From positions 310,001 to 374,000 of the forward strand of contig JAGMVK010000010.1 of NCBI GenBank assembly GCA_020747065.1: DNA of 64,000 bases, given 5' to 3'. Shown piece after piece: positions 25,958 through 57,558 of the stretch. The DNA comes from Cadophora sp. MPI-SDFR-AT-0126 (taxonomy: Eukaryota; Ascomycota; Leotiomycetes; Helotiales; Ploettnerulaceae). Under the pieces are notes generated by a model. That model did not search any database. It was not told the DNA's origin and saw nothing but the letters and a program-made list of their open reading frames with translations. Made by a program: the position numbers and the translations under genes. The stretch's first letter is position 1. Each line of letters begins with the position of its first letter.

Positions 25958-26395
25958 ATGCCTTCGCGAACATCTTCTACAGTAGCCACGACAGGTTCTA
26001 GCTCAAGGTACGCGCCTTTTGGATTCTTTACTGTCGTTGGATCTTCCAAATCTAAACAGAAATCGTTTCTTAGGACAATCACGCATTCGGACTCAACGGT
26101 CAAACACTTCCGTGATTCGACATCATCCAAGTCTCCTGTTCGTCTCCCACAACTTCCGTCAACAATGTGTGCTCTGCATGTATTGAGACTCGTCGAGGAC
26201 CCCAATGTGTTCGACCCGGACTACAGCATACTTCGCTTCGGCCGCGAGCGGAATGCAAGACACCCGGTATTCATAAGTCACAAATCTGGTGACCACATAG
26301 AAGCACAGATTTCCAGAATGAAGTCCATCATCGCCAAATTCGATACTGAATTCTGCAAATCACGTCAAGATGGAAATGCTTTGGTTTATCATTAG
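25958..26395 (+). CDS. Small two-exon family member A (17-residue Ser/Thr leader family)
   Basis: Exons 25958-26007 (50 nt) and 26074-26395 give 123 residues. The first exon codes MPSRTSSTVATTGSSSR, the leader shared by copies at 30.0, 34.5, 38.2 and 41.1 kb. The intron (GTACGC ... TTCTTAG, TCTAAAC branch) is phase 2 after the AG of codon 17, like the others. It is 66 nt, so an unspliced read also stays open, giving 146 residues. Exon 2 is the longest and most divergent copy but ends in the family motif AQISRMKSIIAKFDTEF. No signal peptide or membrane segment is seen; function is unknown. Spliced structure is inferred from the family pattern. Confidence 0.55.
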   Translation: MPSRTSSTVATTGSSSRYAPFGFFTVVGSSKSKQKSFLRTITHSDSTVKHFRDSTSSKSPVRLPQLPSTMCALHVLRLVEDPNVFDPDYSILRFGRERNARHPVFISHKSGDHIEAQISRMKSIIAKFDTEFCKSRQDGNALVYH

Positions 26396-26803
26396 AGAGG
26401 ATGGAGGGACGAAAGCCGACTATGCCACTCGTCAATTGAAGTATGTAGACTTTACATCTAATAAAGATTTTGGCCAGTGTTAATGACGATGGAAAGTTGA
26501 TGCGCCTAATCATGAAACACTAGTGTAGCTTGCTCCCGTTTTCGGTCCTCTGTTACTCTGTCTCACGCAAAGCCACAGGCGGTGAGAGCAGTCGTGTCTG
26601 AGTTTTCTGAAGGAGTGCGAGTTTTCTCAAAAATGGCCTCATTCGAAGAGATTCTCGGATACGAGACATGTAAAGCGCAAAGTCAAGGGAAATAGATTTC
26701 TTTGGATTAATGGCGAAACAGAAGATTGCGTTTAGCGTCGGTGGAGTCAAGACGTTGCAGGGTTCTGGGGAAAATCCTAAAGACATTTGAGTCAGACGCA
26801 AAC
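26396..26803. other. Spacer between family copy A and the transposon
   Basis: About 400 bases with only a minus-strand shadow frame (26553-26873). It ends at the TA target site of the Tc1/mariner element. Confidence 0.4.
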
Positions 26804-26805
26804 TA

Positions 26806-28172
26806 CAGTGACCCGTCAGAAGTATTAGCCGAGAAACGTAAAACCGCGTTTTTTCGCGAACCGCGTTTTCCATCCTTCAACTTCAACGAATAACTATGCC
26901 ACCAATTCGCACTCCTTTGCGCGATACCGATGGCAACAGACGTTCACGAGGTAAGGAGCTTACTCCTTACCAAAGGGGGAAAATTGTAGGGCGACAAGAG
27001 GCCGGGGAATCGCCGGGGGAAATTGAGGTCGCTACAGGGCTTTCGCGGGGGGTAATTCGACACACCTTAGCAACGATACAGGTTCGCGACGACGGCAGAT
27101 CTTTACCTCGCAGTGGTACTCCTGTAACCTACGATAGCCGATCGAGACGTCGCATGCTTTTGTGCCTACGTCTTCACCCAAAAATGACGTATGAGCAGCG
27201 TCGAAAGCACACCGGCCTCAAAATGAGCGATTCCTATATATACCGACTTGGAGTGGAGGAAGGTCTACGACACTGGCGTGCAAAGAAACGACCGGAGCTT
27301 ACAGATGACGTAGCTGCGCAACGTTTACTTTGGTGTCGTTGTCGAGCCCATTGGAAGACGAGGCAATGGAGGAAATATATGTGGAGTGACGAGTGTTCTG
27401 TGGAGCGGGGCAAAGAGGGGGAGATCGTCTGGGTATGGGGTCATACCGCCGATAAATGGAAGCCCACACACGTTACGACGTACAAAAAGGGTAAAGGGAT
27501 GCGTGTGATGGTTTCGGCAGCCTTTTGGGGAGACGGAGAGCGGTCTGATCTCCTAATTTTGGAACGAGACTTTGAATCAAAGAAACACGGGTACTCTGCC
27601 AACTCCTACCTTACCCTTCTTGAAGATTTAGTCGTACCGAATTACCACGACGGGCTTATTTTCATGCAAGACAATGCCCCGATCCATACAGCTCGAAAAG
27701 TCACGGAATGGTTTAGAGAAAGAGGTATAAATGTCACTGATTGGCCTCCTTACTCGCCAGACCTAAATCCAATCGAGCATGCCTGGAAACGACTCAAAGA
27801 TACGTGCTCAAAGATGTTTCCCGAGCTCTGGAAATCTGACGGAAAGTCAGAAGAGGATCGAATTGCTATGGAGGAAGCTTTAAAAGAGGCCTGGGGTACG
27901 ATACCTGTGTCTTTCTTTGAAGAGTTGATCGAGTCTATGGAACGACGGGTTGCAGCATGTATTGCGGCAAATGGGTGGCATACAAAGTATTGAAAATTGC
28001 AAATCACGAGCTGACTAGCGCATTTTGTTCGGGAGGTTTCAACGATTCTTTTGTACTAATTTTTATTATTGTACGATTAGTGGTTATTAAGTTATTACTA
28101 AGTGATGTTTGTTCAATACTTCTTGATTTTCTCGCTTAATCGGCTCTGGCTTATACTTCTGACGGAGTACTG
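26806..28172 (+). mobile_element. Tc1/mariner-type DNA transposon, apparently complete
   Basis: A 1367-bp element begins CAGT and ends ACTG and is flanked on both sides by the dinucleotide TA (26804-26805 and 28173-28174), the target duplication of this superfamily. Terminal inverted repeats of about 25 bp match at 21 positions: 26806-26830 against 28148-28172, with the core CCGTCAGAAGTAT identical. It carries one uninterrupted transposase gene. The TIRs are short and the element is compact, as in Tc1 elements. Few differences between TIRs and an intact frame suggest fairly recent insertion. Confidence 0.93.
26896..27993 (+). CDS. Tc1/mariner transposase (DD34E)
   Basis: Single-exon frame of 365 residues starting MPPIRTPLRDTDGNRRSRGK. 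A helix-turn-helix DNA-binding region lies around residues 22-75 (LTPYQRGKIVGRQEAGESPG onward). The catalytic triad is visible: Asp165 in MWSDECSV, Asp259 in FMQDNAPIH and Glu294 in YSPDLNPIEHAWKRLK. Exactly 34 residues separate the last two, so it is DD34E, the Tc1 class, not mariner DD34D or pogo/Fot1 DD35D. All catalytic residues are present and there is no stop or frameshift, so the enzyme may be functional. It would cut and paste the element at TA sites in the nucleus. Confidence 0.95.
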   Translation: MPPIRTPLRDTDGNRRSRGKELTPYQRGKIVGRQEAGESPGEIEVATGLSRGVIRHTLATIQVRDDGRSLPRSGTPVTYDSRSRRRMLLCLRLHPKMTYEQRRKHTGLKMSDSYIYRLGVEEGLRHWRAKKRPELTDDVAAQRLLWCRCRAHWKTRQWRKYMWSDECSVERGKEGEIVWVWGHTADKWKPTHVTTYKKGKGMRVMVSAAFWGDGERSDLLILERDFESKKHGYSANSYLTLLEDLVVPNYHDGLIFMQDNAPIHTARKVTEWFRERGINVTDWPPYSPDLNPIEHAWKRLKDTCSKMFPELWKSDGKSEEDRIAMEEALKEAWGTIPVSFFEELIESMERRVAACIAANGWHTKY

Positions 28173-28174
28173 TA

Positions 28175-30008
28175 AGATGGTGTGGAGAGGGCGAATCGCT
28201 CATTTTCAGTCCTCAATTGAGGACTACTAGCTAAATTTGATGTTTTCTCTACCTCTTTGGTCCTCTTGTCATTCAATGCTAGGGCTGTGATCTGCATTTT
28301 CCGTAATTTCCGCGGATGCAGTGTACTAGCACCCGTGGTCGCCGAATCACTGATGCGGAGTAACGAGTCATGAATATATATGCTGCTCACCGGAGAATTT
28401 CTCCTAGAGCTGATGGCGCCTTCATGGTGTATACTGGCCAATTGACTTCTACTCTTAACCAGTTTGATACTTGCTCCAACGATACATAGCCCCTTATTTA
28501 ACGACACTGTCCATCTTTTCTCGGAACAACGAAATGAGAAGTTCAAGAAGTGGCAGTGGCAGACATACAAATTTGTTCATTGGATTTCATATGCCGTGGT
28601 GTTTCGGTGCCCATTGATTCCATATGTTTGCCCCTTTCTCACAAGTGTTAACCGATGCATCTGAGCAGGCTGGAGGGCAACATTAGCGAGCTGCCACCCT
28701 TCATTTTGAGCAGTAAATCACAACTAGTGGGCATGAACATTCCTGAATGGCAATTCAACCCCAATTGGCTTGCGAATAATGGACCGAAGTACTTCGCATC
28801 GCGTAAAGGGATGCCACAAACTTGAAGTGTTGCCACGTGACTGTTGCTGTCAGGAAAGTGGATCAGTACCGGTGTTGGTGGGCGAAATGACTAAGCAGTT
28901 GAATTGGCAATGAGCTGACTGTACGCAGACTCGCGCTAAAGGTAGGATAGTGTAGGATCATTATCCTTGCTTTGTTGTAGAAGTTGAAACCTTTTCATGA
29001 TTTGAGATCCGCCGAGGGGGCGAGCGTATGTATCAAAACACAGCTCCATCATTCTGCCTTGCTGTTCTCCTTCACATAAAGCGATTTGTTTGTTCTGAAT
29101 CTGGCATAGATGTACAAGTAGCGCCAATATTGCATTTTTATGGACAGCTGGAGAAGATCAGCTTCGGAAACGAGTGTCTCGATCTCTCAACATCCTACCA
29201 CCCCAGCGATCTTCTATTTGTCCTTGTTCCCCTGGCACGAGTATCCGTCTGGTTCACCTGAACATCCATTGCAGCTTGTGAAGTTCACTACTGCTTCGGT
29301 CAATCGAGATCTGGCTCCTGCTGTGAGTGTAAGTGGAAAGGGAGTTAGGGTTGCCCCAAGTAATTCAGCTCACCGAGTTAAAAACTCGAATTCTGGGTGA
29401 TCCAAAGAGCTGCACCCCACGTATTCGAGCTCACGTTGAAAGGTCGGGATGAGTTTCTGAAGGTATAGCCTCGTGTGTTGTGGCAAGGAGATGATGTAAG
29501 AAATTTGCCACCAACTTCCGGCGGGGATGTATGCCGTGACGGGCTCCTGTCAAGTTCTTCTAAATATTGCCGCGATAAGTAGACTAACTAGCATGGAATT
29601 TTGTGTCGCTTTACTGGAGGCAAATTCTCTCAGGAGCTCCAGTCCATAGTGAGCGGGTGGCAAATTATTCCCATACACTTGCGGCAAAGCTGCAGCTTGC
29701 CACGACTATTAGAGCATCATGAGCCTATTGGCTCGCTGGTGTCGAAGGAACAGCCAACAGCATGTCCTACTTATGGGGCCTTCAATTGATCCTGCAGAAG
29801 TCTCGTGTGATTCTGCAACATTGCAATGAAGACTTGCTTCTCGTAGACGAGTCGTAGTACGGGTAGCCGCCCCTCATGTCCCTTCATAGAGATGTATAAC
29901 CTCGAGGTGCTCCGGGCTCACACTCTCTGGGTTTCTGTCTTCTTGGCAACAACCACAACCATACCTCGAAAGATCCAGAATACAAATCAATTTTCTCTAC
30001 CAAACAAT
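28175..30008. other. Gene-poor stretch between transposon and family copy B
   Basis: 1.8 kb with short frames on both strands (for example 28151-28570 minus, which runs into the transposon end, and 29140-29400 plus). No family recognised. Confidence 0.4.
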
Positions 30009-30423
30009 ATGTGTGCATCTGCAAGCTCAACTGGCGCTACTCATGGTTCCATTGAAAGGTTTTGCTATTTACTTCAAAAGAGAATTCTGAACAGTTGAAC
30101 AATCTGGCAATGAATAACTGCTGACCAGCTCTTACAGCAACAAGGGCCAGTTTTCAGTTCACGAGAATGGATATTCTGACAACCAAGCCAATCACGAGCC
30201 GTCTCCGCCCCCAGGAAGTCATTCAAATGATCCTCGCTCACTGAGCACATGTCTCCATTCCCTTCCAATTCAACGCAACTACTCCATCAAGCAATTCGAA
30301 GCTGCTGCGGACACTTCGCATATTGGATACCAAGAAAATTCTTCAAGTAAGATCATTCGGGCTAAAACAGCAGAATTAAAGTCCGTCATCGAAAATTTCG
30401 ATGCAGCTTTCGATCATGTTTGA
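30009..30423 (+). CDS. Small two-exon family member B
   Basis: Exons 30009-30058 (50 nt) and 30138-30423 give 111 residues. The leader is MCASASSTGATHGSIE plus a split codon 17. The intron starts GTTTTG, has a CTGAC branch point at 30122-30126 and probably ends at CTTACAG (30137); an acceptor at 30128 would add three residues in frame. Neither exon extends past the intron by itself because the direct reading meets stops, which supports splicing. Exon 2 is Ser/Asn/Pro-rich and ends AKTAELKSVIENFDAAF, matching the C-terminal motif of the other copies. The donor is weak compared with the other members. Function unknown. Confidence 0.55.
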
Positions 30424-31896
30424 AAACTTGATGGAGGAGACCCAACACTACATCATATGCGATCACGCATCGCGTACCAGGTACGTATACACTATACCAT
30501 ATTTACGAAATCATTCTGACAAGGCAGAGGATTGGTGACTAGATTTTCGCCATGGTAACGGGTTATTGTGAGGAGGCTAATCTGGCCGAATCAGCCGAGT
30601 CGAGCTCACGGCCCATGAAGTAACCCAGGCGGAACTTGAGTTGAGTGATGGAGATATTCGCCACTTTGACAGGGGGGATGAATGGCAAGAAGAAACGTTT
30701 ACCATTAGGCTGAGATGTAACACAAGTCGATAGAATGAGCAAAGAATAAAACCAAAAATATGCCTTGGCTTACAAGACTTCCTAACAGCCCGCACACCAG
30801 ATTTCGTCCGAATTGTCGACTCTACGGTGAGGGTTGACGTCTGGAATGCTGCCACAAAGAGGCTTCCAAAAATGACGAGTACGTGCAGAGACGAAGCAGA
30901 AACAGCAGAGGCAATTGGGAGAAATGAGACAGTGAACAATGCTTCAAGACCTCATGCCAGTTCGTGGGGTGATTGCTCAGAGGGCAATTGGGAGCCCCCG
31001 TGTCAGCCGGTGCAAAGAGGTATCGTGGTGACAAAACCAACTTGGCCAGGGGCAAACCGTAACCAGTAACAAGAAAATCCATCAAGGCAAAGATTTTGAC
31101 ACAAAGTAAAGGGCGGTACGCAGATGTGGCGACAGCGAGGATGGCGTGGCTTGACATGTACGGCAATTGAAGGTCAGGGGGGAAAGTTTACTTTCACCTA
31201 TTTCAAGATTTAAAAACAAATTGTAACACCTGCCTGTAAGCATCGGTCCAGCCAGTCGGTCTTCACAGGAACCCAGACTCACTGAGAAAGTGGTCTTCGA
31301 GGGATGCAAACGAGGCAAGGCAACAGGGCGATGGCGCGAGGGAACGACATGGGACCGATCGAATGTTGTTCGGACATCAGCACGAGAGAGGCGAGACCAT
31401 CAAGCCCAAGTTCTGGGGCGGCATGATGACCTAGAAAAATTAGATGAGGCAAGATCTGAGGTAAAGGTATAATGCGAACCAAATTGCGCGCCGTCCTGAG
31501 GCTCTAGTCTTGGATATCGGTGGCTCATGGTTGCAAAAATTGGTGGGAGGGAGAGAAATTGTACTCCGGGGCACGTCTTTGACTCTGAAAATTGGCTTAG
31601 GCAAAAAGTCTCGCCTGCCAGGCAAGTTGCGAACCATTTGCGACCCTGCATGAGCGGCTCTTGTATCGTACCCGATGTGGGGTATTGTTCTTTCCCTACG
31701 ACGGATTTCTCTGCACGAAAATGCTCTTGCTTCTTGCTCCTGTTTATATTTAATCTTCTGCTCCCGCTTTCGATATGTTTCTTCTGATCAATTAGTTCTA
31801 CATCAATCCCAGAAAGCAGATTGTGTTTTGGACCCCAATTAGTCACGTGGGCAAGCAGCCAAAATATCTTCGATTCACGTTCCAGCCACAATCAGA
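30424..31896. other. Gene-poor spacer
   Basis: About 1.5 kb between copy B and relic C. Frames at 30577-31166 and 31400-31891 (minus) are unsupported. No repeat recognised. Confidence 0.4.
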
Positions 31897-31986
31897 ATGG
31901 CTTCTTCCCCGTCATCTACATGCGCTACAAGTGGATCATCACCGAAATATATCTCAGGCATTGCCGAGAATTCAACGACGTACTGA
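31897..31986 (+). pseudogene. Family relic C: first exon with a lost splice donor
   Basis: The frame opens MASSPSSTCATSGSSPK, nearly the leader of copy E (MSSYPSSTCATDGSNK). Where the other copies have AG|GT after the second base of codon 17 this one reads AA|AT, so the donor is gone. Translation would run on to TGA at 31984-31986, giving 29 residues. A long open frame in another phase follows to 32324 and ends RAAVQGIKI, vaguely like the AAVRIIID of copy F; it may be the old second exon. I call it a relic because the conserved donor is missing. Confidence 0.5.
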
Positions 31987-33956
31987 CACCATTCATCTGG
32001 GTCACGAATATTGCTGACCAGCTTCCGACAGCTCGACCGTCCCCAGGAAGACAGGTTCTGGAAAGACAACAAGATCAAAAGATCTATCAATTTCAACTAC
32101 TTGGTCTAATCAAGAACCTGCGTCAACATTTAAATCCGGTGGATATTCCATTAGCCGATTCCAGTTGGACCCTGTCTGCTCACAGCCCGGGTTTCGCTTC
32201 ACTTCTGAGAGCCAAAGCGTTCACATCAACAAAAGCCGAGCCTCGACCGTTTGCAGCGGATTCGACAAGCTATTTTCTTCCGCCAGTGATGACAAGGGCA
32301 GCAGTGCAGGGAATTAAGATATAGCGTGTGAAAGTCGGAAAAACTACGGCCCTGGTAAGTGTCACGCCTCTCCATAGAGTGACATATCCGCTTGCTGACT
32401 TACAGCGCTTGCAAAGGTCTCTAACACCTTGTCATCAGAGGGTCGCGTGTCACTGCGGAAAGCTGTTGGAGAAAATCAACCCTAATTCAACTCGCCTTTA
32501 AGCGAACCGATAGGGGGGACCTTCCTGTCACGTGCAATAAATAGACTATTCGCTTTCGGTAATGAAGTGGAGGTCAGATTCATGTTGAACCATCTAGAAA
32601 GCGGAGTTTGTTTCGTCAAGTTTTCGTAAATACGAAGGCCAAGAATGTTGGGACAGCTACAGTGAGCGTAATGCTTGGTTTGCGAGACCAGATCAAAAAT
32701 CGGGCGGGGGCGGGGAAAAAGCAAATACACACATCGTCCAAAAATACATTTCCTGATCAGCTTCGGATTTTGAGGAATCCAAGAGTCTAATGCACCTTCT
32801 CACCCTCGGTCGCACCTGAGCGAAGTTTTTCTTCCAGAGAATGCCTTGCAAGGCAGACGGCCTCGTTCGTTCCCCTTGCCGCCTCACTTCCCAACACGGC
32901 TTTTACTTAGCATCGGCCTCGGGAAAGCGGGATTTAGGGATATCTGATACGGTCGGAGTCAAAGGATATCACCGACATTCATTAATTCCACCGGCTTGAG
33001 TGATAGGTGCACTTTTCAATGCAAGGCTGAGATGCACCCCACTATCACTTGTTCGTGACAAGCTGAGCAGCCAATTCCATATCGGGAAAATTAGAGTTGA
33101 GAAGTAAGCGAGGTTTACTCAGCTGCCGCTTGATTTGGACGAAGATTCGTATGCACGTTTTGTCATCCACATAATTTCCAGAGCTTATGAAGATGCTTCC
33201 GTGTTCTTGGTTCAGGCGCGCTGGTCACCAACAACACATTTTGTCAACATGGTCTAAATGAAAGCCCATGCTTGGTCAGAAGTTTGTTTTGGCTTCGCGG
33301 CTTTTCAAGCTGAGGTCAGAAACTTCGCCCGAACCGCTTCAGGAGCCTCATATTACCCATTCTCGTTTTTCTCGTTACCGATTGATAATTTTGGGCGCTT
33401 TCATTGACTCACTCAAGGTTACGTTGCTGTTTTTGAGACGCGTCTTCTTCCTTTCCTGGTCGGTCGGTGAGATGGTCTTGGTGACAAATATTCTCACTTT
33501 GGACCGTACAGGGAAGTTCGTCCATTCGAGCCCGAGAATTCCTGCCAACACCTGACGGAATGTTAATGAAAGAAAGTAATGTCGGTTTTGATAGGTGCCT
33601 CAGTTTTTATGTTGTATGACTCGCGCGGCGGATACCTACTTAATTGGGTTGAATTATGCTAAAGCTGGGGATGGACGCTAACTTATCGATTGCGTACACT
33701 CAGCCACGGAAACCGACATGGCTATCTTAAAATGCTGCAGATATGTCCAATGGAAAGTTGAAGTCGCGGGATAAGGCTGATAGTCACCCCTTATCACAAG
33801 TCTTATCAGGATTCAGCCACAGTGAAGATTTTTTCCCCATCAACGCCAACCCCGCACAACCAACAGCGACGCTGCGTCCTTAACACCTGCTTGACGCTAA
33901 TTGCAATAATCTCAAGCACCAGTTAAAGACAGAAGCTCACCGAAGTCGTATCGTAA
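31987..33956. other. Gene-poor spacer
   Basis: Contains the open frame to 32324 that may belong to relic C and weak frames at 32482-32887 and 33268-33555. Nothing recognised. Confidence 0.4.
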
Positions 33957-34035
33957 CGCCGAGTGTCCGAATGGATAGTTGAACGCCAGTCGATTATCAT
34001 CTCGTTAGTCCGAGGTTTGGAATCCTTCTCGGATG
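33957..34035 (+). pseudogene. tRNA-like relic
   Basis: Box A TGTCCGAATGG (33964-33974) and box B GGTTTGGAATCC (34014-34025) lie at tRNA spacing; box B is the consensus with one transition and one extra base. Flanking CCGAG and CTCGG can pair as part of an acceptor stem. The anticodon arm does not fold, so no identity can be given. A decayed tRNA gene or the head of a tRNA-derived SINE is likely. Confidence 0.4.
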
Positions 34036-34518
34036 TTGGCGGCAGATGTAAGTGGGCCGCCCTTACCCCGGCTGGAGGGCGTGATACGCCAGCTTAGGTC
34101 GGCTTTCGTCGCCCTTCCGCTTGCGACTTTGCATGTACGGCTGGAGCGAGTTGAGTCGTACATCTATCAGAAGTACTGATAGCTCTGGTGGTAACTTCTC
34201 GCTACCAGGGGGGGAGACTGCAGTCGCTCGCCCTCTGCTCCAGGTCCCAACTCGAGCTACCAAAAACACCCCTGTAATTGTTTCCCAAATCTAGCTACCA
34301 ACCAGCACACGTCAGAAAGGGCGACTTGATTATTGCTATCTCCACAACCATGAGTACGCTTCAGTCCCCTTACTTAAACTCAACCTTTCCCCTCATATCT
34401 TCGAGTAATCCAAACGCGAAGTCAAACTGGTCGATGCTGCTTAACAACCTGCCAAGCCTCAACTCTCATCTGGTACTACGCCACGAGACACATCTACATC
34501 TGTACCATTTTAGTTAAA
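34036..34518. other. Upstream region of family copy D
   Basis: About 480 bases; a G-rich patch near 34195-34210 and a C/T-rich leader (34340-34500) before the ATG at 34519. A 79-codon plus-strand frame at 34278 has no support. Confidence 0.4.
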
Positions 34519-34908
34519 ATGTATTCCCCAGTTTCTTCGACTGGCGCAACATGTGGCTCAGGCTGCAGGTAAGTTGACATGTACCTCAAATTCTACGATA
34601 ATTATCTGACATTGCATCAAAATAGGTCGATCTGCACTCGCACCAAGTCTAGTCCTGGGTCCGTCCCAAAGTCAAATTCGAACATTTTTGAGAAGCAAAA
34701 AACCCATTCGAGTTCTTCTGAAGAATCCACGGCTGTCTCGCAGCATGACAAATACTACAACGATCGCATTGCTTCATATCTAGTCGACGTCAACGAGACC
34801 CCAATATTCGAAGGCACTTCTGTGGGAGACAATGTCCAGGTGCATATCACCCAGATGAAGTCATACCTTGACACATTCGACAACGCCATGGTCAACTCGA
34901 ATCAATGA
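34519..34908 (+). CDS. Small two-exon family member D
   Basis: Exons 34519-34568 (50 nt) and 34626-34908 give 110 residues. The leader is MYSPVSSTGATCGSGCR. The 57-nt intron is the clearest in the family: donor GTAAGT, CTGAC branch, acceptor AATAG, phase 2 in codon 17. Exon 2 starts Ser/Lys-rich, then has DRIASYLVDVNETPIFEGTS and the C-terminal motif ITQMKSYLDTFDNAM. The block DRIASYLVDVNETP aligns with DRIAAYTTNPTDANP of copy F. No signal peptide or membrane segment. The good splice signals make this the best-supported member. Confidence 0.65.
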
Positions 34909-36894
34909 TCGAACCACATCTCTTCACAGCGTTACGCTACAATATCTAAAAGCTCGTCTATTCAGTAAGTCCTTGATTGGAAGACAGTCGTTGCAGCCAC
35001 TGACACTTTGAAGGACCGACATGTATCATTGGAGCAATTAGCTACACCACACACATGGAACTTGATTAACCTGCAAAGATCGAGCAAGCGACTTAACCTT
35101 TGTTCGCCGAAGAACCGAAATCATACACTCGGGCCAAACGAGGCTGGCCATTAGTGCCACACCTTCCACCAACGGATGCTGGAGTGAAGTGCTAGCTTGC
35201 GAGAGAGGTGAGGCTTTTTGGAATCAGTGCAGTTGCGATTAGGAGTGGCAAATGATAGAGATGACCAAAGCAGCGTTGCAAGATGAGAAGGGTCCAAAGC
35301 AAGTATTATTCTCCCAAGCGAGTGGTTCCAGCTCGAGCAATTGGTGAGGGGAGCAACATCGTGAAATTAAGCTAGTGGGACTCGGCCTCGGGTGGGCCAG
35401 CTGTCGGCTAACTTAGGCACGGTCCGGATTTAGACCTGGACCGGCTCCACAAACTAAAATAGCTTAGAAACTTATCTTTGACCTCATCTGAATACTTTCT
35501 TCCATATGTCGGACATCTTCCTACTTTTGAAATCATCCATGACTCTACAGTGTTGGGGCTTCCTGACAGGCGTGATAGGCAAATCATTTCTTGGTGGAAA
35601 CGGCCCGTAACTCGTCACTAACGAGACGCGCCGCATGAGATTTTCTGTCCAACAACGGCAGATCAACCAGTTCACAAGTAGATAAAGTTCCTTCCGCGTG
35701 CAACAAGCCCTGCAAACATCCCGCTTCATTCAGCTCATTGGCTAAACCGAAACTCCCAGTTACGCCATTGAGTAAGGACAGGGCAGGGTGAGTGAGAGGT
35801 GTTGAGTTAACGAACGTGCTTTCCGTTTTGTCTCTTCAAGGTTCGCTTGGCACAATCGGATGTGACCAAGGGGTGCCCTATCCAGGTCGGGAATCCTAGA
35901 GCAATACAAATGCCGTTGACTCTGCGGTATGCCGGGATGGACTGGGGATGAAGAAGGAGAATGTGAATTACGCGCAGCCAAGGATCGAGAGCAAGAAGAG
36001 AAAGTGAGAGAATGGCGAGGACGACGACGACGATGATGAAGACGACGACGACAGAGAGGCTGAGCTAAATATTTGAGGGGTGATGGCTTGGCTTGGAGAA
36101 AAACAAGTCTGGGCAGGACAGTATGCAGGTGAAGAACGAAGGCTGCCGGGAAGCTTTTGGATATTAAGGTAAGGTCGTAAGGTTGACGGCGCGGCGGGAG
36201 GTTTTGGGGGGCTTGCAGCCCGGAAAATGGAGCTCCCAAGTGATGCCGGCTCGATCGATATTGGAGGACTGGGGTTGCTGGGTATAGGGCGGCTTCGATC
36301 AAGCCTATCCGTCCTGCGGTGAGTTGACTTGACTCTCAAGTAGTACCGAGAAGTACCGTGGTGGAGTCTCCGTAGAGAGAAGACTAGAGAGAAGACGTGC
36401 AAGGCAGAGCAAGGCAACTTTGGGCCAGGGTAGGGGACAGGGGCAGATAGGGTGCTTCTAAATACAAAGTAAGCAGGGATTTACATTGCCCTTGGCTCTG
36501 TCAGGCCCCCACCTTACTTTCTCCCCGCCCATTGCGTGCATGCAGAGTCTTCCATTCGGGGCATAATAGCTCGCCCTTCTTCTGTGCCTGAGGGCATGAC
36601 AAGGGTTACGGGCCTCCTTCAGTGTTCAATCCGACCTCGCATAGACTGACGATCTGTGTGTTTTCCACGAGCAGTGTCGTCCTTCATCAACGAGATAGCA
36701 AAGTCGTCTTGATACATTAAACACTCCCTAGGTCTCGTCCTTGTTATGACCATTACCGACTCCACAGCTGTGATAAGACGTGCGGTAAACTTACCCGTTG
36801 CTCATCTTCGGACCTGGTGCTGTGCTCCTCAGAAGCACAGCCGTCGTAACGAGTACTAATGTGAGCTACGGACCCAGTACCGTAATCGAAGCAT
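34909..36894. other. Gene-poor spacer
   Basis: 2 kb without a supported gene. It includes a (GAC/GAT)n microsatellite at about 36018-36053 and minus-strand frames (35760-36417) rich in Arg, Ser and Pro that are its by-products. Confidence 0.4.
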
Positions 36895-36989
36895 GCAGTC
36901 GTAAGTAACGGATACAGTCGTAAGTAACGGATGCAGTCGTAAGTAACGGATGCAGTCGTAAGTAACGGATGCAGTCGTAAGTTACGGAT
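36895..36989. repeat. 19-bp tandem repeat, five units
   Basis: Five head-to-tail units of GCAGTCGTAAGTAACGGAT at 36895, 36914, 36933, 36952 and 36971. Only two substitutions are seen, one in the second unit and one in the fifth. Partial units follow. No coding role. Confidence 0.95.
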
Positions 36990-37585
36990 GCTGTCATGAG
37001 CGGATGAAAATCTCTGGAAATCCCAAGCTACGAGCCCAAGTCGTGGGCTACGGATGGACCTGTGGCTACAAGGATACCCTGACGGTACGACCCCTGAGTC
37101 TCCACCTGGCGAACCCGAAGATGAACGATGTCTCGGCGACGTCGATGCTGTGCAGTATCGAGTCGTTGAGCCACTAGACATCCATGCATTGCTTCTCCAT
37201 GGAACCTTTACCGTAGAGCTACATATTGTATAGCGAATCATTTACCTTGCCTTTTTTGACGGGTGCAGAAGTCGTCAAAGATGCCGTAAAGGTCAGTAAA
37301 AAGAAGAAATCCGCAGAGCTGGAAAGGGGAAGAAAATTCAAAATGTTCCCCCGTAACAATAACTCAGCCTTTGGGTTGCTCATCCTTTGCTAGGTGAACA
37401 TATCTTGCCAGGTGGTGTCGCAATGCCTATACCTCGGTGCATACCCGTGTCGCTTTGGTCTGGATTACAACAGAGAACCAGGCTCGCGTTTTGGCGGTGG
37501 GGGAGAGGAGGTGGTGGAGAGGCTGTCCAGGAGCCAGGGCCGAAATCACCAAACAGAGTTCCGTCCAGGTGAACTCGGGCCCCCG
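36990..37585. other. Spacer between tandem repeat and hairpin
   Basis: Only shadow frames in overlapping phases (37380-37601). A G-rich run near 37495-37515. Nothing recognised. Confidence 0.35.
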
Positions 37586-37641
37586 CTAACCTAATCTGCA
37601 AAATGAGAAGTGCGTCCCTCTTAGCTTGCAGATTAGGTTAG
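37586..37641. repeat. Perfect 16-bp inverted repeat (hairpin)
   Basis: CTAACCTAATCTGCAA at 37586-37601 is the exact reverse complement of 37626-37641, with a 24-base loop. It may be a small folded RNA element or the remains of a miniature transposon. Confidence 0.85.
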
Positions 37642-37706
37642 TGTGAACGCCACGCTGGAGACTGTCATGCATAAAAGTTTGTGAGTGCTGGTTGGGGGAC
37701 CACAAC

Positions 37707-37934
37707 ATGGCCTACGATGGCTCGCCCAGAAGTGTTGCCAAGGGATTTATGGGTCCAGGGAGGTCAGGAAGACCCACCACCCCACGTCCGTCAAGTGCAG
37801 CGCCAGAATCATTGCAGTGCAAGGGCAAGGATGGGATATGGTGGAACTTTCAGCCAGTGAGTATGTGCACGCGACGCAGTGATTCCTCGAACATCAGGAT
37901 CAGTGAGAGGCATATCCAAGTGCGCACCATCTAG
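37707..37934 (+). CDS. Weak small ORF, hypothetical
   Basis: From the ATG at 37707 the frame reads MAYDGSPRSVAKGFMGPGRS and continues with Pro/Ser residues to LQCKGKDGIWWNFQP, then runs on to 37934 (75 residues). A possible donor GTGAGT follows WNFQP. I do not recognise it. The composition of CKGKDGIWWNF is protein-like, but support is thin. Confidence 0.2.
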   Translation: MAYDGSPRSVAKGFMGPGRSGRPTTPRPSSAAPESLQCKGKDGIWWNFQPVSMCTRRSDSSNIRISERHIQVRTI

Positions 37935-38163
37935 CTATTACTCCTTCCATAGGCTTTCTGCAAATATAAGAACAAACTTGAGCCCACCCCATCCTAAGTT
38001 GTCAAAATTCTACAGTATTTCTTGAATCGAAAATTTCCATCCAAATTTCAATCCCCCACCCCCACTTCGCCTTGGCTATTGCTACTCTCCTCTTCGCTAT
38101 TTGCTCTCTTTCTGCCAATTGTGCCTTGTTCGACGAAAAGAAAGAAGTATTATACAATTTACA

Positions 38164-38534
38164 ATGTCTTCCTACCCATCATCTACTTGTGCCACCGACG
38201 GATCAAATAAAAGGTATGCATGAATGTGCCCAAGACCCAACAGCAAGTATTGGGCTTTATTGACTTTCAAAGTTGCCCTCGTCACATCGGCTCGGCATCT
38301 ACCAACGACCAAATCGACACATCTACCTCCACTTCCAAGACAACTACTCCCACAAGTGACGATGCTACCCAAGCCGATGAAGAAGCTGCACGCCTGGCAT
38401 TATTCCTCAATGACACCGTCGAAGCCAACCCCACATACCAACACACTTCTTCTACATCAAGCATGGCTGCACGCTCTGCTCAGATGAAGTCGTACCTCGG
38501 TACCTTTGATGAGGTTCTGGTGGAGAAGAAGTGA
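38164..38534 (+). CDS. Small two-exon family member E
   Basis: Exons 38164-38213 (50 nt) and 38273-38534 give 103 residues. The leader is MSSYPSSTCATDGSNK with split codon 17. The 59-nt intron has donor GTATGC and ends TTTCAAAG; AG followed by T makes Ser at the junction, as in copies B and F. Exon 2 has a Thr/Ser-rich stretch (IDTSTSTSKTTTPTS), then ARLALFLNDTVEANPTYQHT and the motif SAQMKSYLGTFDEVLVEKK. TVEANPTYQHTSSTSS lines up with TDANPSYTHTTTEAS of copy F, which makes E and F the closest intact pair. TATA-like TATTATACAA lies just upstream. Function unknown. Confidence 0.62.
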
Positions 38535-39034
38535 TGCATATATATATGATCAAATCTGACCATATATCTGATAAAGGAATGTTATGCTCCAGGCAATCAG
38601 CTGGAACAGTACGTCTTCCCAGTCATCCCACTTCCACCTCATCATAAAGTAATACTAAGTTGGGCATCTTAGATGTTGCGGCACCAAGTCATTCAAGAAG
38701 CAATTAAGGGAAAGAAGATACCAGGTACTGGATATCGCACTTCCCTTGATCATCCCTCATGAACGTATGAGACTCACAAAGCTCGCTTCGAACAGAAGCG
38801 AGACGAGGATGAGTACCTAAAAGGGAATCATTTGATGGCAAAAATTTGGAGGCGCAGAAACTGTATGGACCTAAGAATGGGTAAATTGATTCGATTTTCA
38901 TTGACGATACAGTGGGATTTGAGGACAGGAGTGGTAGAAATTCAAAAATAGGTAGCGCGAGCAGTAGATTCTTGGCAATACCAAAAGACTTCTTTCAAGC
39001 CTGAACGTCCTAATAAAAATCATAATCTTCAACA

Positions 39035-39547
39035 GTGGATGAAGGCAATACAAATTGTATGGCTATTTGCGATCCTATAACCTCCCGAAATGAGAAATGG
39101 TGGAAGCAAAGTGCCGCGAGCCACGCGAATCGCAGGCAAGCACTGATGGCGCTGCATCGCACACTGCTGCATGAGCACCATGGTTTTTTCCTTGCAAGCC
39201 AGTATCTGTGGATTCTACTCATTAATTAACAACTGACCATGAAGTAGGTGATGCCGGCTCCCTTGTGGAGACACGGAATTCATTACTTCCTCGAGCTTCA
39301 ACGATCTCAGCGGCTGGCCACAAAGTACGCAATGCCAGCTCGAATGTGGAAGCATGGGATCAATCCGTTCTTCTTGCTTCTCACGTATCGCCCACCCGCG
39401 ACTCTTGATCAGATGCTTGTATTTATGTACATTGCTTACTTCATTATGGTCTTCCTATACGAGATTGTCCCTGAATTCGAGGAGATTTGGATTGAGTGTC
39501 TTGCTCGCGTGTTGAGGCACGGCATGGACTCTTTCCTGGAGCTTTAA
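39035..39547 (+). pseudogene. Fragment of an EST1-type (DNA/RNA-binding) fungal protein
   Basis: Two open segments separated by stops, 39035-39229 and 39248-39547, read like the middle of a large conserved fungal family that I associate with EST1-type domains. The recognisable parts are EKWWKQSAASHANRRQALMA, LHRTLLHEHHGFFLASQ, LATKYAMPARMWKHGI, and MYIAYFIMVFLYEIVPEFEE followed by WIECLARV. The MPA-x-WxHGI segment occurs twice, at 39251 and near 39331, as though duplicated. Both ends of the gene are missing. Family naming is from memory and moderate; decay is clear from stops and truncation. Confidence 0.5.
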
Positions 39548-41111
39548 GTGGATGACCCTGCAAGTGTTTGCCAGCGGAACTCTCCGGCCTGACAGACTAC
39601 GGACGAAAATTCAAGCCTTCAGTTTAAATCGAAAAATGAAATTATCAAATGAGACCGACAAGCAAAGGAGACGGAATGAAGAAGTCTGGTGAGACCAAGA
39701 AAGATTTGCCTGAGGATTATGTGACGCTGATGACTGTGATGGGATGTGTTGGAGCCTTGCTTCTTCACCAAGCCTGGACTGGGCCTAAAGTTCGGGATGT
39801 GGAGCGCACCTGAGCGAAGCGTTTCGCTAGCGCTTCTGTCGCACCTGTCATGTCTGGGATTCAGCCTACTCTACTCTACCATACCCCTACCTGTTGTGGT
39901 GCGCTCGAGCAAGGACCCTGGTCGTATCTGCCATTAAGCTTGTGCACATCTTTTGCCCACTCACACTTCCCCATATCCAAGCCACAGGACCCAAGAAGCA
40001 AGTGGTGCGGAAACAGGGTTGGGTAAACAAGGGGTCGCAGAACCATATTCTCTCGTGCCAGCACACATCTCATCGGGAAAGTCGTTGTAAACTGTCAATC
40101 AACCATGCATCATCCAGCACATACAACGACAGACTCTGGTCGTCTGGACCGCTTAAGTGATAATCCTTGCGCAATGGTCTTGAGTTCGGGGAGGCATAAA
40201 GTACATGAATTTTGAGGTAGTTTTGAACACAGAATTCAATATCGTGTATGTGACAGTCCTGCTGGAAGTCGAAGATTTCGGAATACTGACCAGTAACTTG
40301 GTACATGATGAGGCTCGGTTGGTTTTACTGCTTCTTTGATCCTCTGGTCGTGGAGCCGGTCCCAATTTGAGCAGCCGTTCTTGATCTGGGTTTCTGGGGG
40401 CGGCTGGAGGCAGACCCATCCCAAGGTGGGGGCGGAAGGGGGAGAGGGGGAGGAAGGGGGAGGATTTACGGCCGATTGAGGAATCTTGGCACGGTGCAGC
40501 AAAGGTTTATAAATAATCGCAACTCCAAAGACAATGATATAGTGTGAAGAGATGAAGTTTTTAATTGGATATTTTTAAAGCATGTGCATGAGCCGCATTT
40601 TATTTAAGGAATTGTTGTTGAAGAAACGGCACAGCGAAGAACTTCGATTTGGTGTTCTAGAAATGTTTCCATCGGCCGTAAGTCTCCCCACCCCTCCCCT
40701 CCACAGCCTTCCTAGCCTGCAGCCGCGCCAGCCCACTTGGAGCGGGGAGGCACTTCGCTTGGAGCGATCTGCAAACACGGTCGTGGTGCAGGGTGTATCA
40801 AGCTCACAAGCTGACCACATCAAGTCTTCGAACAGGAAAGCAATGTGTTTCTGGTCAGCTCAATGATGGGGCAGGCTATGCTTCTCATTCACTGTTTCAA
40901 GTATTATATATCAAGGTCTTCAACCTCTAAATGTCTGTTTTCTCAAGAAGAATTTCCTTAATCAGTACGCTTTTGCATTTCTGACTTGCACTTTTCAGGC
41001 GAGCTTGTATGATAAAACCGACTTTATCCAAACCTGTATCGTTGCATGCGGACAGTTCCAACACACACTCGCTACCCAGATTGAATTAATACGCAATCAT
41101 CGCAGCTAATA
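39548..41111. other. Gene-poor spacer before copy F
   Basis: 1.5 kb with overlapping weak frames (39894-40160 plus, 40070-40502 minus, 40582-40866 plus). G-rich at 40390-40465. Nothing recognised. Confidence 0.4.
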
Positions 41112-41516
41112 ATGTCTTCCGAATCATCCTCAACATGCGCAGTCAATGGCTCGGTCATAAGGTACATCCAATAAGACAGGCGCATGCCATCAGAACATCA
41201 CAGTACAAGAACAGTTCGCTAAATCATTGTTGTCAACAGTACCGACAACGAGTCCGTCAATAATAACCGTACTCAATCATCATCTACCTCTGCGACCTCG
41301 AGTACTGCCACTGCAGCTTTAGATGCTTTGAACATGTCTGCAGACCGTATCGCAGCCTACACGACCAACCCCACCGATGCCAACCCTTCCTACACTCACA
41401 CCACAACCGAAGCGAGTATCGCGGCGCACAATGCTGCCGTGAGAATTATCATCGACCACGTCGATGCCAGTATGCACAATATCAGAGAGAACAACAGAAA
41501 GGGTAGCAAAAAATGA
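41112..41516 (+). CDS. Small two-exon family member F
   Basis: Exons 41112-41161 (50 nt) and 41240-41516 give 108 residues. The leader is MSSESSSTCAVNGSVI with split codon 17 restored as Ser. The 78-nt intron has donor GTACAT and acceptor CAACAG. Exon 2 has a long Ser/Thr/Ala run (SSSTSATSSTATAA), then SADRIAAYTTNPTDANPSYT, TEASIAAHNAAVRIIIDHVD and a basic tail NNRKGSKK. The helix AAVRIIIDHVDASM occupies the place of AQMKSYLGTFDEVL in copy E. The 3' half and downstream flank are repeated, decayed, at 46.16-46.62 kb. No signal peptide. Function unknown. Confidence 0.62.
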
Positions 41517-42933
41517 GACGTACTGGCGTTGATAACTGGGGTGATTGGGTTGAGGAAGAGATGGAGTCTGGCGTACTAAGGCGAACATATGGATGAGCGT
41601 AGAGTATGGAAAGACGGATATAGAAGAGTCACTGTTTTTAATCAAGTTAGACAAGGATACAAATAATGATTTAAGAAAGGTTCTGAAGTTCTTTCCCTTT
41701 GAAAAAATGACTCCTTGCTATACGTGCTAATAAATAGTCAGATCCTAAACGAAACAAGGTTAGGAAAGTCAATAACTCTAGTTTCTTCTTGTAGAAGAGT
41801 AGATACGCAAACTATTTTAACGACAAATAAATGCTCTAAAATCATAGGCCAGCGATACGCAGTTAATCGCTATTAGTAGATCTTAATTGAAGTTAAGTAT
41901 TTAACTAAATATGAGAAAGTATTAAATAAGGAAGAAAAGTAATAGTAACGTCTGAACTTTGCGAAGTATACGTACCAAGATAGGTGTCACCTTTGACGGA
42001 CGAAGAGCTTGTTTTTGGGGCCATGATAGATTTTGCTGAGTTTTCAATGCCTGAGTTTAATGTAGGGTCATTGGAGTTGTAGGTAAGAGTAGAGAGGTAT
42101 TAAGCGTTCGTAGGAGTGAATGCGTTTGGAAATGTTGATACCAACTTGGTCCCGACTCATGAAAGGCGGTGTAACATCGGCAGAGTTCTGAAAACGAAAT
42201 AGCGCCAATGGGGGAACCAGGTTCGTCTGCAGGACCCCTCAACCCCTCAACTCTTGTGCTGACGAGCTAGCACGAACCCCATATCAATACCTCTGTACGT
42301 TGGTAGATAGATAGTGATAGGTAAGTGAAAATAATATAATAAAGCATTCAGAAGGCACAACTGCCTTTTATTGAGTGGGCCTGAACCATTCCCTCACTCG
42401 GATCCCCGCCCCACCTACCCCTCATCGCCTTTTCCCAACCACAACGGTGGTTTACCTCTTTCAGAGTCAAGAAGGCCGTACAAAGTAAGAAGAAGGGAAT
42501 AAAGTCAACGAGCGCACACTTATACTTACCTATCGCTACGTGTGGGAGGAGCCTATTTCTGCCTCGTGCGGCAGCGCTAAGCCCTCTCTCTCTCTCATCA
42601 GTCGTATACACATCACAGGGAGTTCCGCAGCAGCATTGGTATTGGTCTTGTCTTGCATAAGCGAGTACAAAGCGGCCAATCAATTAACCAACATCCCAGA
42701 TATTGCATGCGATGCAGTCAGCACACCCTTTTCAGCTTTACCCGCCCACTCACCCACCCACACCTGTCAAACGCACGCCCGGCTCGGGCCACACCCACCT
42801 CACACGACGAGAAGATTGAGGCTCGTTTTACCATTTCAACAGAAAATCCTCACCACCACTACACCTTGAACGGCTAGTCATTTCTGTTGCTTACAGCCAC
42901 CGTCGTACCGCCGTCAGCTAGCAGCGAACCATT
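41517..42933. other. AT-rich spacer and HET gene promoter
   Basis: 41640-41960 is AT- and TpA-rich and partly duplicated near 46.43-46.62 kb. The remainder is C-rich leader (42720-42930) of the HET gene. Frames at 42348-42877 are unsupported. Confidence 0.45.
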
Positions 42934-45372
42934 ATGGAGAATCTCCATGTATGGCCTCTTACACACAGGTAGGTCTGGACAAAAGCCATGACCCTTCCAC
43001 TCTCCTTTCTCCCTGCCTACCCCCTATTTCTTTCTTTTTCCTTCCAAAAGTACGTGAATGCAGGGAGAGTACCACTGGTTTACAGCTATTCCCTCATTCA
43101 CGATTCTCGGAAGTCGCAAGCATGGAGCAAATTTGGGAAAGTTTCCTCGCTCTAGTATACTTGTATGCATTGTTTTACTTCCCTGTCCAGTCTATCATCG
43201 ACTCAGGATGAGGACAAGCAACTACATTCATCAGTTAAAAGGTCAGAGCTAACGCCATCCCATAGCCCCCTGCACGCTCCTCCCGAGCAAAAGGATCTCC
43301 GTCTACTGAGGATCGAGCCAGCGGCGACTGAAGATGATCAAGTCTCTTGCCGCATGGAGCATCACTCGACGAGGGAAAATGACTGGTCGGATGAATGGAA
43401 ACACTTCGTATCATCTCTTGGACATCCAGTTCAACCCAGAGATCGGCTTCATTGGCGTAAAACCAAATCCAGTGTCGCTCGTTACAAATGGGGCGACTAC
43501 TATAGCCTCAGCTACACCTGGGGAGACACCAAGCATTTGACCACAATCTTGGTTAATGGCCATGATTTCCAGGTAACTCGGAACCTGCAAGCAGCCCTGC
43601 GGGACTTGCGGAACTCGGGTGCCTTGCCCGAAGGTTGTCTTTTATGGGCCGACTCTCTGTGCATTAACCAAAGTGACAAGTTGGAGAAGGGCAGAGAAGT
43701 TGGTCGAATGAAGACCATCTACTCTCGTTCCCTCGAAACAATCGTCTACCTTGGATATGGAGATCCCGGCATTGAAGCTGCCGTCGATTTCATCAATTCA
43801 GCAGAAGGATGCTGGGACGATGTGAAGCGGCTGAAGGCCACCATTAGCAAGCACCTCCAAACAGCAAGCCCTGATCTCTGGCAAAACATAGTCGCTTTCG
43901 CTGATTTGCCCTACTGGTGGCGACAATGGGTCATGCAGGAAATGGCGGCTGGTAGTGGTGAGAAGCCAATGCACTATGGGAAGTCTCACACCACGTCGCG
44001 CCTCATATGGGACATGTTCCGTCACCTCAACCGCCGCCATCGCAATCAACTCCCACTCTCTGCCGCGCTCTGGGACGTCATTGAGTCCTACCCTCAGCAC
44101 TACGAACGTCTTCTTGAGTCTGGACTACCAGATCACCGTGGCCCAACGGGCATTCGGGCATTCGTGTTCTCTGATGACGGAGAAGGGGAAGCGAGTCGAT
44201 GGAATACATACCAGATTCTCAGCACTGCTCGCAAGAACCAAGCCACAGATGCGCGCGACTACGTATACGGGCTTCTTGGACTTCTGAGTCCAGGTCTTGC
44301 AGCCGCAGTCACCATCGACTACGAAGCTGATCCGAACATCGTGTTCGAGACGTTTACCAAGACGGTCATTTCAACAGAACAGCGCCTAGAGATCTTAGGC
44401 CAGTGTGACATGTATGGCTCACCGAGCTGGGTGCCACGGCTCAACGTGAACTTCCCATGGTATCGACACCCTCATCACGAGTTGGAAGCACCATTCAAGG
44501 CCGATGCAGGCCATGAGAAGGCTTCCCACGTGCATTTCGAAACCGTAGGCGATCAAAGCGTACTTCGTACAACGGCACTCCTCTTCGACGTACTCGACGG
44601 CCTCTCAAGCGCGAATCTCGAGACTGACTACAATAATGAGAATCGACTGTACAAAGGCGGCTATGCTGAAGAACTGGTACACACTAGCGCGACCAACGTA
44701 GCCAACGCATACGGCTCCAAGGAAGCTCTCCGAGAAGCTATATGGCGTACAGCAGGCGGCGACCGCGACGTCGTAGGCGCGATTCCGGGGCCACGAACCT
44801 ACGAGATTCTGCTCTCAACCGAGATGCTGGAGGAGCGGTATCGATTCAATCCTCTCACGGCCGCAGCAACAAGCAATACTGGGGCGGAGACCGAAGACGA
44901 TTCCACGACTACGGAAGCTGGGGATCCATCGCAATTGAACCCTTGGGCTGGCTGGGCACGCAAGAATAGCGAATTCCGCATCGCCGGCACGCCGCTGCTC
45001 GAGTACTTTGCTCCGGCGGGCTTGCAGGATAGAAGTGAGGATGAGAGGCGGCAGGCTGTTCGCGAAGGCAGGGATGCTGCTAAGCGATTTACCAATGCGT
45101 GTTGGTCGCGGCGGATGGTGGTTACTCAACGAGGGTATGTCGGTTACGTGCCTTGGTATGCTGAAAAAGGCGACTATGTGGCCCTCTTGCCCGGTTGCTC
45201 GTTCCCGGTCTTGTTGCGGACCATTGAAGCTGCTGATGGACGAGATGGTGGAAAAGGGGAGAAGTGGTTTAAGTTTGTTGCCCCGTGCTATGTCCATGGG
45301 ATCATGAATGGTGAGGGTTGGGCTGGGGTGGATGCTGGAGAGAAACAGACAGAGCAAATCACGTTGGTCTAA
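42934..45372 (+). CDS. HET-domain protein (heterokaryon incompatibility type)
   Basis: Exon 1 42934-42968 and exon 2 43266-45372 give 713 residues, starting MENLHVWPLTHSPLHAPPEQ then KDLRLLRIEP. The HET domain lies at about residues 91-260 with its hallmarks: YSLSYTWGD (91-99), GCLLWADSLCINQ (135-147), and VGRMKTIYSRSLETIVYLG (158-175). The C-terminal part includes ARDYVYGLLGL and a late WSRRMVVTQRGYVGYVPW block usual in this family. HET proteins trigger cell death on non-self recognition during hyphal fusion; the partner of this one is unknown. The short first exon was chosen because MENLHVY-like starts are common in the family and the splice (GTAGGT ... CATAG) restores frame. The 297-nt intron is long and could hide a small exon. 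Confidence 0.88.
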
Positions 45373-46160
45373 GAGGTTGATTTTGGAGGCATTGGAGTTT
45401 ATTTTCTTGGTGCATTGAAGTTGTGGACTGGAGCAGCGATCTGAAAACTAGATAGTGCTAACTAGTAGTCCACTCCTGGACAATGATTTCTGCGCAGTTC
45501 TTGCAATCACGCTCGTTTTCTTTCCTTGGAATGAGTTGTAAGAAGATCAATCCTTACTTAAAACCCCCATCTTTATAACTCGATTGCATGATCCCTATAT
45601 ATCCTCAAATGCCTAAGAGGTTGTCACATACGACCATAGGCTCTTGAGAAATGGGCTATCTACATAACTTGTAAAACACTAGCATTAGGTACCAGCAAAA
45701 AAAACCCCAAACCCGTATCTCGGCCGCTATTTGATAGAGACTATTCAATGATTATGTATTCGTATCTGGGACTCTAGTATCAAGATCTCAGAGCTCAAGT
45801 TTTCTATCGCACCAAAGATTCATGAGCGTTCGGAACCTTGATCAAGAATAGCTTGTAATACTATTTAATAAGAGGATTAAGACTGGGGTATTAGTGCCAA
45901 CAGTACAAGTGTTCACCTTCCCCTCCTCCCCACCCTTTTTACTTCACAGATTTATCACTCTGGATTTGGACTGACACTTTAGGTGTCTACCATCCTCTCC
46001 TTTTCACTTTTCTTACTTTAAATCCATTGTCCCTTACCGTCTACTTCTAGATATCTCTCTTAACTCTTTCATATCTCTAAAGATGAGTAACCGAGAGCGG
46101 CGACAACTTCCCTCTAACTTATTACGAGCAAAGAAGTGCACTATAAACAAGTAGAATACG
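45373..46160. other. AT-rich spacer
   Basis: About 790 bases of AT-rich sequence with no frame above background. The relic of family copy G starts at its end. Confidence 0.4.
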
Positions 46161-46291
46161 ACAAATCCAAACACTACGAGCGAGCCTCGTAGCGCACACT
46201 GCTCCAGTAGTGAGGATTATCATTGACCATGTCGATACTATATTGAATGATGCCGGCGAGGATCATCACGGAAAGAAAAAGCGAGAAGTGA
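46161..46291 (+). pseudogene. Family relic G, decayed copy of F
   Basis: GTGAGGATTATCATTGACCA followed by TGTCGATAC matches the copy F segment that codes VRIIIDHVDA, and the preceding CGAGCGAGCCTCGTAGCGCA matches its TEASIAAH segment. Upstream frame is lost and no leader exon is recognisable. The matching stretch ends at the same relative stop codon (46289-46291), and similarity continues into the downstream flank. Confidence 0.6.
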
Positions 46292-57451: not shown

Positions 57452-57527
57452 GCCCAAATTCGTCTCCGGTGTAGGAACAGTTCCTTTGGTAGCCAAAGCG
57501 CTCGCTTCCCCGGAGACGAATTTGGGC
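57452..57527. repeat. Perfect 18-bp inverted repeat
   Basis: GCCCAAATTCGTCTCCGG (57452-57469) is exactly complementary to 57510-57527, with a 40-base loop. It begins 32 bases past the stop codon of the minus-strand transcription-factor-like gene, so it would form a hairpin in its 3' UTR. Confidence 0.92.
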
Positions 57528-57558
57528 CGCCTAGTCGACATACATTCCACTAATATGT

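Follow-up and report, generated by a model that had tools for sequence, protein, structure and literature searches.

A predicted family of small two-exon genes at two loci in the genome of Cadophora sp. MPI-SDFR-AT-0126

Gene models and sequence similarity in the window array

We analysed a stretch of 64,000 nucleotides (nt) from the ascomycete Cadophora sp. MPI-SDFR-AT-0126 (assembly GCA_020747065.1, contig JAGMVK010000010.1, here C2, bases 310001–374000), hereafter referred to as the window; genome-wide searches covered 53.96 Mb in 38 contigs. The window carries an array of six intact-looking two-exon genes (A–F), all on the + strand, whose predicted products are small proteins sharing an N-terminal leader and a related C-terminal half, and eight homologues were found on a second contig (C3). 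A previous sequence-only reading of the window had described A, B, D, E and F as such genes and had placed two relics, C and G, beside them.

As modelled, gene A (25958..26395, +) consists of exon 1 (25958–26007), a 66-nt intron (26008–26073) and exon 2 (26074–26395), and encodes 123 amino acids (aa). Gene B (30009..30423, +) has exon 1 at 30009–30058, an intron at 30059–30137, with an alternative acceptor at 30128, and exon 2 at 30138–30423 (111 aa), and gene D (34519..34908, +) has exon 1 at 34519–34568, an intron at 34569–34625 and exon 2 at 34626–34908 (110 aa). For gene E (38164..38534, +), the corresponding segments are 38164–38213, 38214–38272 and 38273–38534 (103 aa), and for gene F (41112..41516, +), they are 41112–41161, 41162–41239 and 41240–41516 (108 aa). 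A second splice model was also allowed for each of B, D and F. All five genes, with products of 103–123 aa, have a GT..AG intron in phase 2, of 57–79 nt, after nucleotide 50, followed by an open exon 2, and the leader was found at each of their starts, as the sequence-only reading had it. Codon bias was clear in B, D, E and F. The intron of A is in frame and contains no stops, and its retention would yield a protein of 145 aa; without splicing, the reading frames of genes B to F stop after 17–29 residues.

Gene C (31897..32317, +) has lost the donor position used by the other copies. However, a GTACTG donor lies 33 nt downstream, at 31980, and retains phase 2; the resulting intron (31980–32031), with a CTGAC branch-like site and its acceptor at 32031, joins exon 1 (31897–31979) to an open, homologous exon 2 (32032–32317), giving a product of 122 aa. 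This model is one of 20 candidates and was picked for the homology of its exon-2 frame to the other members. Gene C need not, therefore, be a relic and is intact as modelled, and the intron lies at the same place in five of the six window genes rather than in all of them. The other proposed relic, G (46179..46308, +), is a decayed duplicate of the 3′ end of F (41411–41533, the end of exon 2 and the start of the 3′ flank), with an alignment score of 54 versus at most 31 over 200 shuffles; it carries no leader.

The leader was sought at ATGs on both strands with the pattern M-x-[SA]-x-x-S-S-T-x-A-[TV]-x-G-S, scored over eight positions. Six ATGs (25958, 30009, 31897, 34519, 38164 and 41112), all on the + strand, matched at 8/8, and no other ATG in the window reached 5/8. 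Thirty Markov shuffles of the window yielded 22 leaders at 5/8, two at 6/8 and none above; since the pattern was derived from these very genes, the shuffles gauge its rarity and not its discovery. The similarity of the exon-2 products, claimed previously for the C-terminal motif, proved to be far above chance. In leave-one-out tests, in which a profile of five members was used to search 1387 six-frame fragments, every held-out member (6/6) was recovered and ranked first among the fragments not used for training, with E-values of 2e-11 to 5e-5 (A, 7.9e-6; B, 8e-7; C, 4.7e-5; D, 6.9e-11; E, 2.1e-11; F, 2e-8). Relic G came next in five of the six runs (0.033–0.20), and with F left out an unrelated fragment (1.1) took this place; over all six runs, no unrelated fragment scored better than 0.24.

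A second locus and the search for further members

The sequence-only reading had confined the family to one strand and to a single array of 20 kb. This was too narrow, as the eight homologues on C3 lie between 59 and 162 kb of that contig, where they form two oppositely oriented arrays, with starts at 58877, 61794, 64338, 71155 and 73156 on the + strand and at 140904, 160101 and 162172 on the − strand. They were located by places matching the leader pattern and by a search with a single exon 2. Their products have 93–129 aa and a leader such as M-AQNDI-YSTTAVDGS-ADE, with variants (STATIDGS in 73156, STIAADGS in 71155 and HSTAAVDGS in 61794) and up to four extra residues before it. Thus, the leader [S/Y]STxA[VT]xGS is found at the N-terminus of all six window genes and, including the variants, of all eight C3 genes, and in 13 of the 14 genes, as modelled, the intron falls in phase 2 at the third residue past GS, the exception being C. 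The splice models of six C3 genes had been pre-filtered for phase 2, and some acceptors were ambiguous and were picked by homology; with the phase filter removed, the same donor was found in all six C3 genes checked and was the sole donor in four, 64338 and 162172 also allowing donors of other phases. A tandem repeat of about 52 bp lies between two of the C3 genes (C3 60588–60823).

A profile–profile comparison (hhalign) of the six window proteins with the eight C3 proteins gave a probability of 94% and an E-value of 1.1e-7 over 86 columns, from the leader to the C-terminus. The whole-length score was 45.7, versus a maximum of 15.9 over 100 controls with column-shuffled C3 profiles. Exon 2 alone gave an E-value of 5.4e-6 (score 35.9 versus a maximum of 13.3 in 100 controls) and the leader alone a score of 19.4 (maximum of 14.0 in 100 controls). 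By their predicted protein sequences, the window and C3 loci are homologous. In a tree of the 14 proteins, a single branch separated the window sequences from those of C3 (support 76/96; present in 78% of 200 bootstrap trees); no inner branch was fully supported, nine of the eleven were unresolved, and several window branches were very long.

Genome-wide, a strict form of the leader pattern matched all eight C3 genes, and nothing else, at no more than one mismatch; at up to two mismatches, it matched 14 places, two of them window genes, versus 12 for a reversed control. The first genome scan with the leader pattern had returned 18 places, of which five were window genes and the other 13 had no ATG at the distance seen in the window genes. 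A genome-wide leader pattern with up to one mismatch matched 134 places, versus 89 for its reversed control. The sequence was read for 30 of these places, which were cut out, and for five on C3; among the 30, an ATG was in place in six, five of them genes of the window and one a gene of C3. Protein searches of the genome with A, E and F whole, with exon 2 of B, C and D and with two C3 exons revealed no further convincing member, but these searches score only the top candidates of a first pass, so a more distant group is possible. Weak protein matches elsewhere in the genome (one with an E-value of 7e-4 for B) failed against the family profile (19 loci, best value 0.15). Pattern searches of prokaryote genomes and viral contigs gave 86 and 21 matches, respectively, and none of these was confirmed as a relative.

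These comparisons point to a family defined by an exon-1 motif of approximately [S/Y]-S-T-x-A-[VT]-x-G-S, by a predicted phase-2 intron normally placed at the third residue after GS, by a variable Ser/Thr-rich middle and by a related C-terminal half.

Duplication, selection and genomic setting

The previous suggestion of birth and death within the family held, with growth seen on C3 and loss in relic G. On C3, the gene pairs 71155–73156 and 162172–160101 have spacings of 2.0 and 2.1 kb and opposite orientations. The proteins of 71155 and 162172 are 60% identical, 73156 and 160101 are sisters in the tree (83/84), and there is also a DNA match downstream of the 71155/162172 pair. We read this combination of spacing, orientation and pairwise similarity as an inverted two-gene block. 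The flanks of the window genes, by contrast, resembled shuffled sequence: with 500 nt of 5′ flank, the best of 15 pairs scored 24, the 99th percentile of 300 shuffles being 26, and with 400 nt of 3′ flank the best score was 26, the percentile being 27. Relic G apart, duplication in the window would therefore be old, with the coding sequence as the part that is kept.

The ratio of nonsynonymous to synonymous substitutions (dN/dS) between copies, a comparison that the sequence-only reading had proposed, was roughly estimated by the Nei–Gojobori method for all pairs inside each locus and was 0.19–0.68 in the 31 of 43 pairs for which an estimate was possible. On C3, it ranged from 0.19 to 0.57 (median 0.36; 25 of 28 pairs) and in the window from 0.27 to 0.68 (median 0.45; 6 of 15 pairs). 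Pooled over pairs, the ratio of nonsynonymous to synonymous differences per site (pN/pS) was lower in exon 1 (0.41 on C3 and 0.49 in the window) than in exon 2 (0.64 and 0.77, respectively). Synonymous sites are near or at saturation, yet the ratio stays below 0.7 in every estimable pair, so that the copies appear to be ancient duplicates kept by purifying selection. Divergence is wide, identity to E within the window being 17–38%, and in view of these ratios the description of the family as fast-evolving calls for caution. The family appears to have spread by tandem and block duplication under purifying selection, with decay by truncation in the case of G.

Each locus has a HET gene close by: in the window, it follows F at a distance of 1.65 kb, and on C3 one sits among the family members (~66–68 kb). 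HET genes are common in this genome: of 447 candidates, 150 were scored and all exceeded the cut-off; the two array neighbours are outside those 150, so the true number is higher. Given this abundance, the adjacency may be due to chance. The two HET neighbours share only a short local match with each other (37 residues, 40%), and a comparison of 38 kb of C3 with the window gave, besides this match, four short and weak ones. The initial 240 bases of C2, and likewise those of C3, contain no telomere repeat.

Between A and B, a Tc1/mariner-like element (26804–28174) has an open transposase frame of 365 aa (DDE_3, HTH_Tnp_Tc3_2), 27-nt inverted ends that are 85% complementary and a TA at both ends. 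A 19-bp tandem repeat (36881–37013) lies between D and E, and a palindrome-like sequence of 56 nt, 79% self-complementary, lies upstream of E (37586–37641). No structured RNA was found at the gathering level in the 25–47 kb part of the window. Elsewhere in the window are a Fungal_trans_2 gene, which together with the HET genes fits a filamentous ascomycete, an open reading frame (18646–19725, 359 aa) that matches ricin-type beta-trefoil lectins and has a seemingly repeated segment, and several frames on the − strand (57422–62155), one of which contains the start of a DUF7708 match (E-value 4e-17); these frames may correspond to one large intron-containing or decayed gene.

Protein properties and candidate roles

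In agreement with the sequence-only reading, none of the predicted proteins convincingly matched a named family. Searches against Pfam (24736 models) gave best E-values of 0.013 for the six window proteins and 0.057 for the eight C3 proteins; each Pfam family matched one member only, and for the first protein of each set, which was compared with the curated cut-offs, the matches were below cut-off. Best values in NCBIfam were at chance level (0.045 for the window and 0.017 for C3). Profile searches of the PDB returned nothing up to an E-value of 10 with alignments A1 and A4, and two chains (0.55 and 2.4) with alignment A5, which we took as chance matches. Literature searches, with leader motif strings and for similar families by title or start of abstract, found no report naming this family. 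The term undescribed is used here on the basis of these three libraries and text searches, which do not prove that no publication describes the family.

A hydropathy scan found neither a signal-peptide-like N-terminus nor a membrane segment in any of the 14 proteins. The highest 19-residue value was 1.19, versus 2.16 for a membrane-type open reading frame of the window, and in the first 30 residues the highest 8-residue mean was 1.56 (in F), versus 2.85 for that frame. The previously claimed lack of a signal peptide is consistent with this absence of a hydrophobic N-terminus. The proteins contain 0–3 cysteines each. AlphaFold2, applied to the six exon-2 sequences of the window, modelled two helices, at residues 30–46 and 60–85 of the exon 2 of E.

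Our best reading is that these are small, largely disordered proteins that carry a motif at the N-terminus and are helical at the C-terminus. We regard as evenly balanced the proposal that the six genes of the window and the eight of C3 belong to one protein-coding family, probably lineage-restricted, with no fewer than 14 intact-looking members, whose products would work as small intracellular adaptors or regulators. The proteins would remain inside the cell; the leader would be a constant motif used in docking or modification, and two helices formed by the C-terminal half would bind a partner or mediate self-association. The variable linker and the helix surfaces would allow the copies to diversify in their choice of partner, and no enzymatic role is envisaged. 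This mechanism is an inference, in view of the lack of a library match, the weakness of the two-helix model and a C-terminal amphipathicity not above that of shuffles. In favour of the proposal are the leader scan, the leave-one-out recovery, the C3 homologues of like architecture and their profile–profile match, the dN/dS values, the lower pN/pS of exon 1, the retention of coding rather than flanking sequence, the two modelled helices and the absence of hydrophobic segments.

Several observations weigh against this proposal. The AlphaFold2 model is weak (mean predicted local distance difference test score 63, predicted template modelling score 0.26) and is a hint only, and the amphipathicity of the C-terminal segment does not exceed that of shuffled versions (Stouffer z 0.22, n=14), which lends no support to a helix-binding part. 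No promoter word common to the 14 upstream regions survived correction; the best 7-mer (7/14, uncorrected p 1.3e-4) was rejected given the 4963 words present. Direct cross-matches between the loci with exon-2 hidden Markov models (HMMs) were weak, at best 0.024 one way and 0.30 the other (2187 fragments): the C3 model placed window genes E (0.024), F (0.14) and B (0.35) ahead of the best unrelated fragment (0.68), with C at 5.8, and in the search with the window model, the C3 members, from 0.30 down, were interleaved with unrelated fragments starting at 0.50. The other 12 of the 43 gene pairs are synonymously saturated and have no dN/dS estimate; none of the estimable values is 1 or above, but with synonymous sites at or near saturation these values are rough. 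The codon bias of A and C is hardly above background, and the introns and starts of all the family genes are predicted models.

That this is an ordinary, more widespread fungal family lacking a Pfam entry is a reading that comes close to an even chance and may hold together with the proposal above. The apparent lineage restriction would then be an effect of search scope, as the searches covered this genome, prokaryote genomes, viral contigs, Pfam, NCBIfam and PDB; the degree of conservation among the C3 members also hints at some age. Against this reading, none of the 24736 Pfam models matched any of the 14 proteins better than the value of 0.013 reported above.

A role in self/non-self recognition, or a selfish killer or drive function, is unlikely, although the setting recalls one: small, diverging cytosolic proteins encoded in arrays beside HET genes might serve as identity signals, or as poison and antidote, when fusion or sporulation takes place. 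The HET genes adjoining the window array and sitting among the C3 members are in keeping with this idea, as is wide divergence alongside a fixed leader. In Neurospora, lineage-specific genes are clustered with HET genes (PMC10684091). These genes are similar to ours in having no recognised domains, in forming clusters with duplications and in having HET genes nearby. Unlike them, the genes described here belong to a single coherent family, its leader and intron being fixed, that was traced to two loci; the HET adjacency may be due to chance, and the contig starts examined show no telomere repeat. The abundance of HET genes, the limited similarity of the two HET neighbours, the few weak matches between C3 and the window, purifying selection and the lack of any hydrophobic segment weigh against a recognition or selfish role. 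A more specific version, in which an invariant leader is carried on diversified helical tails at two multi-copy loci and the copies give identity or resistance, appears more doubtful still. The wtf meiotic-driver family of Schizosaccharomyces is likewise clustered, with decayed copies, and encodes multi-exon, multi-pass membrane proteins. Our family resembles it as a multigene fungal family with strong divergence, but it is two-exon, lacks a membrane segment in all 14 members and is not known to have a killing phenotype.

It is also improbable that the proteins are effector-like, leaving the cell by an unconventional route and acting on another organism. The proteins are small and diversified and their genes clustered, with a transposon inside the window array, but the absence of a signal-peptide-like N-terminus from all 14 proteins by hydropathy, and their few cysteines, point away from such a role. 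The EKA/AVRk1-type families of powdery mildews consist of small proteins without a signal peptide, are retrotransposon-derived and reach very high copy numbers; our family shares with them the small size, the lack of a signal peptide and the presence of many copies, and differs in having 14 genes at two loci. Finally, chance open frames or an annotation artefact, to which the weak codon bias of A and C might lend some credence, can be virtually dismissed, being contradicted by the conserved protein sequence and intron phase and by the leave-one-out and cross-locus tests.

Many fungal genes lack a recognised domain and are handled singly, and here one set of them is joined into a defined family. 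Gene C illustrates how a seemingly dead copy may be readable via a shifted donor. The diagnostic leader, intron position and C-terminal profile of this predicted family could be used for profile searches in other fungi, for the dating of duplications and for the design of whole-array deletions.

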